From a bacterium BMS3Abin08 (GTDB lineage Bacteria > Nitrospirota > Thermodesulfovibrionia > Thermodesulfovibrionales > JdFR-85): 50,286 bases of DNA. A program made the position numbers and the translations under genes. Position 1 is the stretch's first letter. Every line of letters begins with the position of its first letter. The stretch lies in assembly GCA_002897935.1 (NCBI GenBank), contig BDTA01000076.1, positions 1 through 50,286 of the forward strand, in the 5' to 3' direction. The notes under the pieces were generated by a model that was given only the letters and a program-made list of their open reading frames with translations, was not told the DNA's origin and searched no databases. This document shows positions 20,817 to 46,939 of the stretch, one piece after another.

Positions 20817-20878
20817 AGAGACAATCCTTATCACCTGCTGAAATCCCTTTTGAAGCAACAATCCATTATACTTATATA

Positions 20879-21020
20879 GTGTCCGTGTATAAATTACAGT
20901 CGTTTGTCATTCCCGCAATCCCGAACGCATTCGGGACGGGAATCCTTCTTTAAGAACGATTCCGGACAAGCCGGAATGACGGAAAAACGACAACTGTTCG
21001 ACTTTATACCCGGATTCTGA
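20879..21020. repeat. Family-1 miniature element (copy D), degenerate right end
   Basis: Begins GTGTCCGTGTATAAA and ends TTTATACCCGGATTCT, the latter decayed. It contains GTCATTCCCGC, CCCGAACGCATTCGGGA and GATTCCGGACAAGCCGGAATG palindromes, the same subfamily as copy A. No clear target duplication remains. Confidence 0.7.
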
Positions 21021-42243: not shown

Positions 42244-42948
42244 ATGCAGAATTTTAAGGGTTATTGTAATATCGGCCTGGTGCTTTTATCGTCGGATTTC
42301 CGGGTGATCGGAGTGAACTCTTATGCCCGCAAGGCCCTGGGTTCTGCAATATCAGAGTTAGGCAGGAGCGTGTTTCATTATCACCACAGAAAAAGCCGTT
42401 TGAAGATCGAGTACCTCCTCCGGAGATCGAGCGGACAGGAAAGCGATATGCCTGTAGCCATGATTGTCGATGTACTGAATAAGGTTTTAATGATAAATGT
42501 ATGCAACATAGAGATGAAGGAGGAGTCAACGGACCCGCTTTTTGCCATGACCTTTATAGATGTAACTGAACAGACGGGTGCTGAAGTTAATCCCCGCAGC
42601 GGGATGGTGGAGTTAAAAAAGTTTCCGGTCTGCTGCAGGGATTCTTTTCTGTTTCTCGATGCATCCTCTATTTATTTCATACAGTCAGACGGGAATTATT
42701 GCAGGGTCTTTACGGAAAAGAGTTCTTATTATCTCCACCTTACCTTAAAGAATATACTCAGCCGGTATACCGGTTCAAATTTTCTCAGGGTGCACAAAAG
42801 CTTTATTGCCAACCTGGATCATGTACAAAAGATAAAGCGTGTTAATAAGGGACAAACCGTTATTATCTTTGACAGGGAAGATATTCCACCCGTACCGGTT
42901 GCCAGGCGCAGAATCAGCGATCTCAAGAAGGCCCTACCCCTCATTTAG
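42244..42948 (+). CDS. RcoM-like PAS-LytTR transcriptional regulator
   Basis: A 234-residue regulator with an N-terminal PAS domain (about 1-110) and a C-terminal LytTR DNA-binding domain (about 132-232: IYFIQSDGNYCRVFTEKSSY, LRVHKSFIANLDHVQKI, VPVARRRISDLKKAL). RcoM, a CO-sensing heme regulator of CO oxidation genes, has exactly this layout; a His in its PAS binds heme. Here FHYHHRKSRLKIEYLL (about 44-59) offers His45, 47 and 48, and Met69, 73 and 83 or Cys87 could supply a second ligand. The CO dehydrogenase genes directly downstream support the CO-sensor reading. Its stop codon TAG is formed at the edge of an inserted repeat. Confidence 0.8.
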   Translation: MQNFKGYCNIGLVLLSSDFRVIGVNSYARKALGSAISELGRSVFHYHHRKSRLKIEYLLRRSSGQESDMPVAMIVDVLNKVLMINVCNIEMKEESTDPLFAMTFIDVTEQTGAEVNPRSGMVELKKFPVCCRDSFLFLDASSIYFIQSDGNYCRVFTEKSSYYLHLTLKNILSRYTGSNFLRVHKSFIANLDHVQKIKRVNKGQTVIIFDREDIPPVPVARRRISDLKKALPLI

Positions 42949-43089
42949 GGTCTGTGTATAAAGTCGAAAAGTTGTCGTTATTTCGTCATTCCGGCTTGTC
43001 CGGAATCGCTCTTTGAGAAGGATTCCCGACTCCCAAATGCGTTCGGGATTGCGGGAATGACAAAAAACCGCAGTTTATACACAGACTCT
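42948..43089. repeat. Family-1 miniature element (copy G) at a stop codon
   Basis: 142 bp, ends GGGTCTGTGTATAAA and TTTATACACAGACTCT, flanked by ATTTA on both sides (42943-42947, 43090-43094). Removing it and one ATTTA joins CTCATTTA to AGCC, so the original stop was TAA; with the element it is TAG. It lies between the regulator and its predicted operator. Confidence 0.85.
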
Positions 43090-43095
43090 ATTTAA

Positions 43096-43125
43096 GCCGT
43101 TTATCACCTCATTCCAACCGTTTAT
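43096..43125 (+). promoter_or_regulatory. Two LytTR-type half-sites upstream of cooF
   Basis: Direct repeats GCCGTTTAT (43096-43104) and ACCGTTTAT (43117-43125), 12 bp apart and exactly two helical turns (21 bp) centre to centre. The LytTR consensus as I recall it is [TA][AC][CA]GTTN[AG][TG]: the second matches 9/9, the first 8/9. The array ends 10 bp before the -35 hexamer, a good place for an activator. Confidence 0.75.
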
Positions 43126-43135
43126 CATAAATTCC

Positions 43136-43163
43136 TTGACCATTTGAAATATACATCTATAAT
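43136..43163 (+). promoter_or_regulatory. Sigma70 promoter of cooF-cooS
   Basis: TTGACC (43136-43141) and TATAAT (43158-43163) with 16-bp spacing; predicted start near 43170, giving a leader of about 75 nt that contains a GC-rich palindrome (about 43186-43212: CCGCCGCCCGG...GCGGCGCCGG). Confidence 0.7.
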
Positions 43164-43243
43164 AGGAATATAGATGATCAGGTCCCGCCGCCCGGAAGGC
43201 GGCGCCGGCCGGCATTATCGTAAAGACCGGGAGGTGATTAAAT

Positions 43244-43813
43244 ATGAAAGAGGTTTTCATTAAGCTTGAGAGATGCACTGCCTGTAAATCCTGCGAGATT
43301 GCCTGTGCAGTTGAGCATTCCTCCTCCAAAGACCTTTTTGCAGCCATTTTTGAAAGGCCCTCACCGCTGAAGAGGGTACACGTGGAGAAGGCCTTTTCCT
43401 TTTCATATCCTGCAAGGTGTCTGCATTGTGCCGATGCCCCCTGTATCAGGGCCTGTCCTGTAGGGGCAATGAGCAGGGAGGCGGATATCGGCAGTGTTGT
43501 TGTCAATGAAGACAGGTGCATGGGATGCTTCATGTGTGCCATGGTCTGTCCCTTTGGTGCTATTTCTTTAAATCCCGGGGAAAAGACGGCGCTTAAGTGC
43601 GACTTCTGCAGGTCCCGCTTAAGAGAGGGAAGGATACCGGCCTGTGTGGAGGCATGCCCGACTCAGGCCCTGATGTTCGGTGAGGTGGATGCCCTTGGCA
43701 GAGAGAAGAGGATGATTACCGCTGAGACCGTTGTTAGGGCAATGGGCAGTATAAAAGATGAAAAATCCGGGGTTACGCCATTGGATTTATTAAGAAAAAT
43801 GGGAGGTGTGTAA
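43244..43813 (+). CDS. cooF: CooF-type ferredoxin for CO dehydrogenase
   Basis: A 189-residue polyferredoxin with four [4Fe-4S] motifs: RCTACKSCEIACAVE (11-21), RCLHCADAPCIRACPVGA (about 58-76), RCMGCFMCAMVCPFGA (about 91-106), and KCDFC...PACVEACPTQA. This is the CooF/HycB pattern; CooF takes electrons from the CO dehydrogenase CooS and passes them to a hydrogenase or oxidoreductase. GGGAGGTGA precedes the ATG. Its stop is 1 nt before cooS, so the two are coupled. Confidence 0.93.
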   Translation: MKEVFIKLERCTACKSCEIACAVEHSSSKDLFAAIFERPSPLKRVHVEKAFSFSYPARCLHCADAPCIRACPVGAMSREADIGSVVVNEDRCMGCFMCAMVCPFGAISLNPGEKTALKCDFCRSRLREGRIPACVEACPTQALMFGEVDALGREKRMITAETVVRAMGSIKDEKSGVTPLDLLRKMGGV

Positions 43814-43814
43814 T

Positions 43815-45716
43815 ATGGCAATAAAGAGACTTGACAGGGCCTCACAGACCTTGATGGATAAGGCGGTGGAGACAGGGATAGAGACGGGGTTTGACAGGCT
43901 TGAGAGCCAGAAACCACAGTGCGGTTTCGGACAGCTTGGAAGCTGCTGCAGGATGTGTTATATGGGGCCGTGCAGGATAGACCCCTTTGGCAACGGTGCA
44001 TCCAGAGGGGTCTGTGGTGCCTCGGTGGACACCATAGTATGCAGAAACCTGCTGAGGGAGGAGGTCGGCGGTGCAGCATCACATGTGGGACATGCCCGGC
44101 ATGTCGCCCTTGCCTTTAAAAAGATGATCGAAGGAAAGGCCCCGGGATATAAGATAACCGACAGGGATAAGTTGATGGAGGTGGCCGGGGGGCTTGGTAT
44201 TACGATAAACGGCAGGCCTGATAAGGAGATTGCCGCGGAAGTGGTGGATAAGGCATTGGAGGACCTGTCGCGGCAGGACGGTGAACCAATGAACTGGCTC
44301 AAGTTCAGGGCGCCGGACAAGGAAATCGCGATGTGGGATAATCTGGGGCTGCTTGTCTCCAATGCCCATAACGAGATTGAAGAGGCAATGCACAGGACCT
44401 CTATGGGCAATGATGCAGACCCAACCAACCTGCTTCTGGCCTGTCTCAGAATGGGGATCGTGGATGGTTATGCAGGCTTGCATGTAGCTACGGATCTTCA
44501 GGATATTATGTTCGGTACCCCGCGGGTCAGGACAATAGAGGCAAACATGGGGGTCCTTGAGAAGGATAAGGTAAATATAGCCATGCATGGCCATAACCCC
44601 GTTCTTTCGGAAAAGATACTCGAATGGGCCGGTAAACTCGATGGTGAGGCAAAGGAAGCAGGTGCAGGGGGCATAAATGTGGTGGGTGTCTGTTGTACAG
44701 GCAATGAGCTTACCATGAGGCACAATGTCCCGATGGCAGCGCACAACCTCCAGTCGGAGCTGATACTCCTGACCGGGGCAGTGGATGCCATGGTTGTGGA
44801 TATCCAGTGTATATGGCCCTCTATAACAAAGATCTCCGAGTGTTACAACACAAAGATTATCACCACCGAGGCATCTGTTAAAATTCCCGGGGCGACCCAT
44901 GTCTCCTTTGAACCCGAGCATGCAGACGAGGAGGCAAAAAGGATCGTCGGTATGGCGATAGAGGCATTTAAGGAAAGGGAGGGCAGGGAGGTAACAATCC
45001 CGAAAGAGAAATCAGCTGCCCTTGTAGGGTTTTCACTTGAGGCCATTATCGACGTGCTTAAGAAGGTTGATCCCTCAGATCCGCTGAAGCCTGTAATTGA
45101 TAATATAGTGAGTGGAAATATCTATGGTGCAGTGGGTTTTGCCGGGTGTCCCAGTATAAAGTTGAGAGATACTTTTATGACAGAGAAGATGGTAGAAGAA
45201 CTCCTGAAAAAGAATGTGCTGATAGTAACCACCGGGTGCACAGCCCATATATGCGCGCAGGCAGGCTTTATGAACCCGGATGCCACTGATAAATACTGTG
45301 GAGAGGGATTAAGGACGGTGCTTACCGCCCTTGGAGAGGCTGCCGGACTCAATGCACCACTGCCTCCTGTGTGGCACATGGGATCGTGTGTGGACAACTC
45401 CCGCATCGCCACCCTTCTTGGCGCCCTGGCAGCTAAGCTTGATGTAAAGATAAGCCAGCTCCCGGTCGCCGGCTCAGCTCCCGAACTTGTCCAGGAAAAG
45501 GCGATATCCATAGGCACCTGGTTGCTTGCACTGGGTCTGCTGGTTCATATAGCACCGTCACCGAGGATTCTCGGAAGTCCTGTGGCCACCAAGGTTCTGA
45601 CAGAGGACCTCGAAGGGATTACAGGCGGCAGGGCATATGTGGAACTTGACCCCGTAAAGGCAGCGGAGGGAATCGTCTCCCATATCGAAAAGAAGAGGAA
45701 GGCGCTGGGGATATAG
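43815..45716 (+). CDS. cooS: Anaerobic nickel CO dehydrogenase catalytic subunit
   Basis: A 633-residue CooS that oxidises CO to CO2 with the release of two electrons. The N-terminal cysteines of the D and B clusters are present (CGFGQLGSCCRMCYMGPC, then GVCGAS). C-cluster ligands: AMHGHNPVLSE (His), VVGVCCTGNE, VDIQCIWPSI, GFAGCPSI, TGCTAHICAQAGF and MGSCVDNSR. No ACS-binding extension, so it is the monofunctional type. The ATG at 43815 has GGGAGGTG just upstream. No cooC or cooT/J maturation gene lies in the window, so nickel loading must be served from elsewhere. Confidence 0.97.
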   Translation: MAIKRLDRASQTLMDKAVETGIETGFDRLESQKPQCGFGQLGSCCRMCYMGPCRIDPFGNGASRGVCGASVDTIVCRNLLREEVGGAASHVGHARHVALAFKKMIEGKAPGYKITDRDKLMEVAGGLGITINGRPDKEIAAEVVDKALEDLSRQDGEPMNWLKFRAPDKEIAMWDNLGLLVSNAHNEIEEAMHRTSMGNDADPTNLLLACLRMGIVDGYAGLHVATDLQDIMFGTPRVRTIEANMGVLEKDKVNIAMHGHNPVLSEKILEWAGKLDGEAKEAGAGGINVVGVCCTGNELTMRHNVPMAAHNLQSELILLTGAVDAMVVDIQCIWPSITKISECYNTKIITTEASVKIPGATHVSFEPEHADEEAKRIVGMAIEAFKEREGREVTIPKEKSAALVGFSLEAIIDVLKKVDPSDPLKPVIDNIVSGNIYGAVGFAGCPSIKLRDTFMTEKMVEELLKKNVLIVTTGCTAHICAQAGFMNPDATDKYCGEGLRTVLTALGEAAGLNAPLPPVWHMGSCVDNSRIATLLGALAAKLDVKISQLPVAGSAPELVQEKAISIGTWLLALGLLVHIAPSPRILGSPVATKVLTEDLEGITGGRAYVELDPVKAAEGIVSHIEKKRKALGI

Positions 45717-45718
45717 GG

Positions 45719-46939
45719 ATGAAGACAGTAATCATAGGTAATGGAGTTGCCGCCGTCAGTGCAGTAGAGGCAATTCGTAAAAGGGATAGGAATTGCGAAA
45801 TTACCGTGCTGTCAAAGGAGGGCGAGATAGCCTATACCCCCTGTTTTCTTGCCCGATACGTCAGCGGCGAGATCGGAAAGGATAAGCTCTATATGAGGGA
45901 GAGCAATTTCTACGACGAAAATCAGATAAATACACTTTTTAACGTTGCCGTCAATGAAGTCAACCCCGGTGATAATACAGTAAGCCTATCTGACGGCAGA
46001 GAACTTGTGTATGACAGGCTCCTGTTAGCAGCAGGCTCAAAGCCCGTTGTCCCGCAACTGCCGGGCATCGAGGGAGACGGGGTGTTTTTCTTCAGAACTC
46101 TTCCGGATGCCGAGAGGATCATCTCTGCTGTCAGGGAGGCCGAAGGGGTTGTTGTGATGGGTGCCGGATTCATCGGCCTTGAGATTGCTGAGGCACTATC
46201 GAAAACAGGGCATAGAGTTACCGTGGTCGAAAAAGAGGACAGGGTGCTTCCGAGGATGCTGGATGGAGAGGTTGCCGGTATACTTGAGAAACATATAAAG
46301 GCCGAGGGCATAAACATAATCACAGGCAGGACAATCGAATCCGTAAAGAGGGGCGGCGGCAAGCAGAGGCTGGAGGGGGTTGTGCTGGATAAGGGGGAAA
46401 GTATTTCCTGCAAAGTATTGATTGTATCCGTCGGGGTAAGACCCAACCTTGAGATGATTAGGAACAGCTCCTTAAAAACCGGGGCAGGAGTAATGACGGA
46501 TAACCGGATGAGAACAAATATTCCAAATATCTATGCAGCAGGGGACATTGCGGAGATGGAGGTTTACGGCGTAAGCAGGGTAAATCCCGTACATATCAAT
46601 GCAGTAGCGGGTGGAGAGGTCGCAGGATGTAATATGGTCGGTGCTGAAAAAGTATTCGAGTCTCATTTAGAGGATATGAATGTGGTAACCCTCTTTGGAT
46701 TACCGGTCCTTTCCCTTGGCATACAGAAAGGAGACAGGGTCCTGAAGAGAGCTGATTCAAGGGGAATAGTGAAGATTTATTTAGGAGAGGATGAACGAAT
46801 TAAAGGGGTGCAACTGATAGGTGACACAATTAGGGGCGGGATATATCTGTCCCTCATGAGAAGGGGAGTTCCTCTAAGTGAAACCTATGACATCCTTTCA
46901 TCTCATTTTAATTATGGATCTACTATAAAAGTCTTTTAA
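45719..46939 (+). CDS. FAD/NAD(P)-dependent oxidoreductase of the coo cluster
   Basis: A 406-residue pyridine nucleotide-disulphide oxidoreductase-like flavoprotein with two Rossmann folds: FAD motif VIIGNGVAAVSAVEAI at the N-terminus and NAD motif VVVMGAGFIGLEIAEAL (about 145-161), then YAAGDIAEM. It resembles nitrite-reductase-type and rubredoxin reductases; a conserved TPCFLARY segment takes the active-site position. CooF-CooS-flavoprotein sets are known, for example in the CODH-IV cluster of Carboxydothermus, where they are thought to send CO electrons to NAD(P) or to peroxide reduction. It begins 2 nt after cooS. Confidence 0.88.
   Translation: MKTVIIGNGVAAVSAVEAIRKRDRNCEITVLSKEGEIAYTPCFLARYVSGEIGKDKLYMRESNFYDENQINTLFNVAVNEVNPGDNTVSLSDGRELVYDRLLLAAGSKPVVPQLPGIEGDGVFFFRTLPDAERIISAVREAEGVVVMGAGFIGLEIAEALSKTGHRVTVVEKEDRVLPRMLDGEVAGILEKHIKAEGINIITGRTIESVKRGGGKQRLEGVVLDKGESISCKVLIVSVGVRPNLEMIRNSSLKTGAGVMTDNRMRTNIPNIYAAGDIAEMEVYGVSRVNPVHINAVAGGEVAGCNMVGAEKVFESHLEDMNVVTLFGLPVLSLGIQKGDRVLKRADSRGIVKIYLGEDERIKGVQLIGDTIRGGIYLSLMRRGVPLSETYDILSSHFNYGSTIKVF

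Follow-up and report, generated by a model that had tools for sequence, protein, structure and literature searches.

An RcoM-type PAS-LytTR gene and a conserved pair of direct repeats precede an anaerobic carbon monoxide dehydrogenase operon in a Nitrospirota genome

The window, the whole 50,286-nucleotide stretch of DNA that was analysed, contains a gene for a single-component regulator, a miniature inverted-repeat element (MITE), a pair of direct repeats, a promoter and a coo operon. The original prediction was right to the base in its coordinates and motifs for the open reading frame at 42244-42948, the repeats, the promoter and cooF-cooS. The features, each with the evidence that defines it, are:

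42244..42948, + strand: rcoM-type gene encoding a PAS-LytTR single-component regulator of 234 aa (domain searches, relatives, profile alignments)
42382..42384, + strand: codon of H47, equivalent to RcoM His74 and candidate proximal heme ligand (invariant in 15/15 orthologues; falls on the cox-linked RcoM His)
42460..42462, + strand: codon of M73, equivalent to RcoM Met104 and candidate CO-replaceable heme ligand (alignment to cox-linked RcoM)
42948..43089, no strand assigned: MITE of about 142 bp with 17-bp terminal inverted repeats (GTCTGTGTATAAA...) (genome copies)
43096..43106, + strand: distal repeat of the putative operator, GCCGTTTATCA, 11 bp (kept in relatives; above shuffles)
43117..43127, + strand: proximal repeat of the putative operator, ACCGTTTATCA, 11 bp, 21 bp from the distal repeat (kept in relatives at a fixed distance to the -35 TTG)
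43136..43141, + strand: -35 element TTGACC of the cooF promoter (relatives; promoter scan)
43158..43163, + strand: -10 element TATAAT of the cooF promoter, spacer 16 (promoter scan)
43244..43813, + strand: cooF, 4Fe-4S electron-transfer protein (domain search)
43815..45716, + strand: cooS, catalytic subunit of a Ni,Fe carbon monoxide dehydrogenase (CODH) (TIGR01702; solved CODH relatives)
45719..46939, + strand: FNOR, FAD/NAD(P) oxidoreductase of the coo operon (domain search)

CooS scored 694 bits against the anaerobic CODH family TIGR01702 (cut-off 478), and its nearest solved relatives are the Ni,Fe-CODHs 6elq and CODH-II (1su6). Alignment to 6elq shows that the C-cluster His and five Cys are present, at positions that we take to be those of CODH-II. 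The same genome encodes a second, divergent CODH on contig C108 (L108:7140-9026, - strand; TIGR01702 520 bits) near NuoE- and NuoF-like genes, and the RcoM operator is absent there among the genome pattern matches.

The LytTR domain (PF04397) covers residues 135-231 of the regulator with an E-value of 4.7e-21. The N-terminal region matches Pfam PAS_9 at E 0.037, which is below the cut-off because the domain is too divergent; a PAS fold is nevertheless supported by profile and model comparison, and the PAS-LytTR layout read from the translation stands. A model of the PAS domain alone (mean pLDDT 66, pTM 0.61) resembles many PAS domains, among them the heme PAS domains of SrrB, FixL and EcDOS, and also LOV. 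The structure prediction and His74 alignment for which the original prediction called gave a PAS-like fold with H47 falling on His74; the loop that carries H47 is the least certain part of the model, which does not prove a heme pocket. A full-length AlphaFold model built from 5 sequences had a mean pLDDT of 45.7 and was discarded. No RcoM family in Pfam or NCBIfam matched the protein, and the solved structures similar to it by sequence are LytTR relatives only.

We searched 72,556 plasmids with the window protein as query. The best match, and the only one to reach at least 80% coverage of the query, was a LytTR protein of Paraburkholderia aromaticivorans encoded next to and divergently from coxMSL (L050:3920-4735), which served as our reference for RcoM-1 and RcoM-2 of P. 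xenovorans. It carries the RcoM signature of a His, a Cys at +20 and a Met at +30. The window family matched cox-linked RcoM over its full length (hhalign 99.9%, E 4.5e-31), and the PAS domain alone gave a profile match of 98.7% (E 1.4e-16). The PAS profile scored higher for cox-linked RcoM than for a second group of RcoM-like proteins from Desulfobacterota, and a tree separated the window clade plus cox-linked RcoM from this second group with branch supports of 99/98 and 100/98, the tree being unrooted, with flagged long branches and a set of sequences without non-RcoM LytTR proteins. By the profile matches and the conserved ligand positions described below, we regard the product of 42244-42948 as a true RcoM relative.

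Members of the second Desulfobacterota group (L098-L107, L109) all lie beside cooS, and they keep the His while carrying Phe, Leu or Ile at the Met104 position, so that their sixth ligand must differ if heme is bound. Three of them (L106:5752-6792, - strand; L107:4080-4907, + strand; L109:3420-4190, + strand) have CTCACCA twice, about 21 bp apart, immediately past the stop codon of rcoM; these copies may be the operator of this subgroup. In the window's own phylum, L047:8822-9553 (- strand) is an aerobic-type RcoM that adjoins cox-type CODH genes (neighbours read by eye) and keeps the His, the Cys and Met-Met.

His74, Cys94 and Met104 follow the residue numbering of RcoM; in Burkholderia RcoM-2, Cys94 is the residue that ligates Fe(III). 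H47 is among 19 residues invariant in the alignment of 15 orthologues, and the equivalent His is present in every other examined RcoM relative that reaches the region. The original prediction had placed the heme ligand in the histidine cluster FHYHHRK and staked its case on a conserved His among orthologues of the PAS domain; H47 bears this out as the candidate ligand, and the other two (H45 and H48) are not conserved. Its partner Met, which had escaped notice, is conserved too: M73 falls on the first Met of the AMMI stretch of cox-linked RcoM, which lies 30 residues past the His of that protein, and is kept in all CODH-linked orthologues, with Ile in its place in L046, where CODH is absent nearby. 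The Cys94 position and its loop are gone from the window clade through a 4-residue deletion. Among the proteins encoded in the genome is an AhbD-like heme b synthase, which is full-length and at 437 bits falls short of the 500-bit cut-off. RcoM is known to ligate heme through His and Met, including Met104 (PMC9670170), and we infer that the window protein binds heme and CO.

Relatives of the regulator at 55-70% identity came from the window's phylum, Desulfobacterota genomes and named metagenome-assembled genomes (MAGs). There are 14 distinct loci, the window included, with rcoM directly before a Ni-CODH operon. Most loci from the window's order continue with cooF-cooS-FNOR. In L020, L022, L042 and L095 the genes that follow are cooS-cooF-FNOR, and in L021 cooS follows. 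Closely similar RcoM-CODH loci occur in a named Nitrospirae MAG (L019) and in a genome of the window's order (L039), and it is these loci that point to Nitrospirota as the source of the window. Within the order rcoM is patchy (9/176 genomes). At three further loci (L046:8838-9563, L096:6072-6803 and L097:8007-8813, all - strand) a clade rcoM has the paired operator just downstream and no CODH within the fetched region; in L096 a ferritin/rubrerythrin-like gene follows (read by eye).

The original prediction gave the two repeats matches of 9/9 and 8/9 to the LytTR consensus, 12 bp apart and ending 10 bp before TTGACC-16-TATAAT. We find the same, the 9-mers scoring 8/9 and 9/9, and the cooF promoter is the best sigma-70-like match within 5.2 kb (11/12). 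No chance copy of the pair appeared at 3 mismatches in 100 shuffles of the window, and in the 2.6 Mb genome the degenerate pattern is matched exactly at the operator only. The composite of operator and -35 occurs in 2/176 genomes of the order, in each case immediately past rcoM (reversed-pattern controls, 0). At 3 mismatches the genome holds eight further matches as compared to four in the reversed control, and thus no clear second target.

By comparison with 16 relatives, we mapped the operator of the clade as RCCKTTYRTCA, 10 bp, RCCKTTYRTCA, with TTG, or in a few cases TTC, 19 bp from where the proximal repeat starts (ungapped anchoring, all members); the proximal repeat ends 8 bp before the -35 TTG in every relative. 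Repeats spaced at exactly 21 bp are found in 14/14 distinct CODH-linked loci, the distal half being weak in one. In L041, L044 and L045 the distal repeat can still be made out, although it falls within the 3'-terminal part of rcoM. The pair scored 19-22 of 22 in 11/12 of the CODH-linked loci of the first set (shuffle maxima 16-18) and 19 in the three CODH-less loci; the score of 16 in L042 reflects a degraded distal repeat (6/11). With that one weakened half-site, the paired site, whose loss in relatives of the same gene order would have spoken against it, is kept wherever the gene order is kept. Since the motif was derived from these same sequences, it is judged fairly only on a genome that turned up once the motif had been fixed. 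That genome, G833, scored 21/22, and its spacing, phase, residues and operon were all as expected. Second-group loci mostly lack the motif; L101 scored 20, and the motif may therefore extend beyond the window clade. Upstream of rcoM no operator scored above shuffle level in any clade member, giving no sign of autoregulation. A possible third repeat in the window (ACCATTTG, 43139-43146, overlapping the -35) is not conserved in relatives and was rejected.

The homology to RcoM, the conserved ligand positions, the geometry of the site and the gene linkage make it highly probable, in our judgement, that this RcoM activates cooF-cooS-FNOR in response to CO. The regulator would be a cytoplasmic one-component protein with a b-type heme in its PAS domain and H47 and M73 as the ligands of that heme, and CO would displace M73 on the ferrous heme. 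In an RcoM dimer, one LytTR domain would then sit on each of the 11-bp direct repeats, which lie two helical turns from each other and immediately upstream of the -35, and the dimer would activate the promoter. The encoded enzymes would oxidise CO and pass the electrons to CooF, to FNOR and on to NAD(P). Points that weigh against this reading are the missing Cys94 and its loop, the two repeats where P. xenovorans RcoM has three of a different kind, the poor distal repeat of L042, and the three relatives in which gene and operator occur and no CODH lies nearby.

The direction of regulation is suggested by the position of the site, since RcoM1 and most activating LytTR proteins have their operator upstream of the -35 (PMC11347149). 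The same regulator and operator could act instead as a repressor released by CO, as CoxC, a CO-responsive LytTR repressor, does at PcoxB (PMC11347149). We regard this as quite unlikely: the CoxC operator overlaps the -35, whereas a proximal repeat ending 8 bp upstream of the TTG is in the position of a LytTR activator, and the window protein is a PAS-type RcoM rather than an MHYT-type protein. It is about equally improbable that redox state, O2 or NO is the signal read by the PAS domain, whether through heme or not, and that only the neighbouring operon links the protein to CO. PAS domains bind many ligands, the folds matched by the model range from LOV to FixL, EcDOS and SrrB, and some clade members have no CODH nearby, including the one that precedes the ferritin/rubrerythrin-like gene; but it is specifically CO-sensing RcoM that has its His and Met at these same positions, and at 14 loci the gene stands directly before a CODH operon.

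The MITE between rcoM and the repeats went unmentioned in the original prediction. The genome holds at least 40 near-full copies, and the element also occurs at 20876-21009 (- strand) of the window. ATTTA stands on either side of the copy next to rcoM (42943-42947 and 43090-43094), and this copy provides the G that completes the stop codon of rcoM. Counting one ATTTA as a duplication, the length of which the other copies do not settle, gives an insertion of 147 bp. The distance from the rcoM stop to the start of the proximal repeat is 168 bp in the window and 21 bp in six relatives; 168 minus 147 is 21, so operator and promoter appear to have been shifted as an intact block, which fits a cooF with its own regulated promoter. 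The repeats lie 6 bp from the MITE end and the LytTR consensus is short, but that they are a chance occurrence, part of the MITE or the site of another regulator is very improbable, because they occur in MITE-less relatives at fixed spacing and phase, and the pair is unique in the genome and missing beside most unrelated RcoM groups. The repeats are most likely the binding sites of the RcoM.

In the CooS tree one clade comprises the cooF-cooS operons and another L020, L022, L042 and L095, with L021 apart on a long branch. The RcoM tree places the window with L020, L022 and L095 (90/94), a grouping that loses resolution when long rows are omitted. An RcoM tree forced to unite the cooF-cooS set was rejected (p 0.015), and one forced to unite the L020/L022/L095/L042 set was not (p 0.21). 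The trees suggest, short of establishing it, that regulator cassette and CODH have been exchanged or reshuffled. Perhaps RcoM and its two-repeat operator form a portable CO-sensing cassette, placed before at least three CooS lineages and sometimes before non-CODH genes in Nitrospirota, Desulfobacterota and Nitrospinota, and using a His/Met heme without the Burkholderia-type Cys redox switch; we offer this tentatively.

The original prediction held that pairing of RcoM with an anaerobic Ni-CODH in this lineage seems less described. This was too strong, since the combination is already known in Geobacter, Deferribacter and Rubrivivax (PMC4703632, PMC6896113, PMC4257681), and the pairing itself is not new. 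We found no description of RcoM in Nitrospirota or of the window-clade operator in the literature searched, a body to which the founding RcoM papers did not belong. What is new here is the clade operator, the loss of the Cys94 loop and the spread across Nitrospirota and Desulfobacterota, with a hint of regulator/CODH reshuffling. Within that literature, the Paraburkholderia cox promoter is the only one at which DNA recognition by RcoM has been worked out; for an RcoM clade with anaerobic CODH, comparative genomics now gives the operator's exact sequence, 21-bp period and fixed promoter phase. Proteins that retain His and Met but lack the Cys94 loop offer a natural experiment on whether CO sensing needs the Fe(III) Cys ligand, and the motif is a tool to find CO-regulated genes in uncultured subsurface bacteria.

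Among known systems, the locus resembles those of Geobacter sulfurreducens GSU2099 (RcoM, with cooS-cooC-cooF-FNOR; PMC4703632) and Deferribacter autotrophicus (rcoM-cooS-cooC-cooF-FNOR; PMC6896113) in that a Ni-CODH/CooF/FNOR operon directly follows the RcoM-type gene, and differs from both in its order cooF-cooS-FNOR and in lacking cooC. The second Desulfobacterota group (GSU2099 itself was outside the sample) is unlike the window protein at the Met104 position, where it has Phe, Leu or Ile, with the His kept. CoxC of Afipia carboxidovorans is likewise a LytTR regulator of CO oxidation acting at direct repeats (PMC11347149), but it is an MHYT-LytTR protein with a membrane MHYT sensor, a repressor, and has an aerobic cox target. 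P. xenovorans RcoM-1 and RcoM-2 share with the window protein the PAS-LytTR layout, a His and a Met at the His74 and Met104 positions, adjoining CO-oxidation genes and direct repeats about two helical turns apart upstream of the -35. By comparison with the P. aromaticivorans reference, the window protein is about 29-31% identical to them and differs in its 4-residue deletion of the Cys94 loop and in Ile or Val in place of Met105; its apparent target is an anaerobic Ni-CODH rather than an aerobic Mo-CODH, and its clade has two RCCKTTYRTCA repeats where P. xenovorans RcoM has three of TTCNNGCA.
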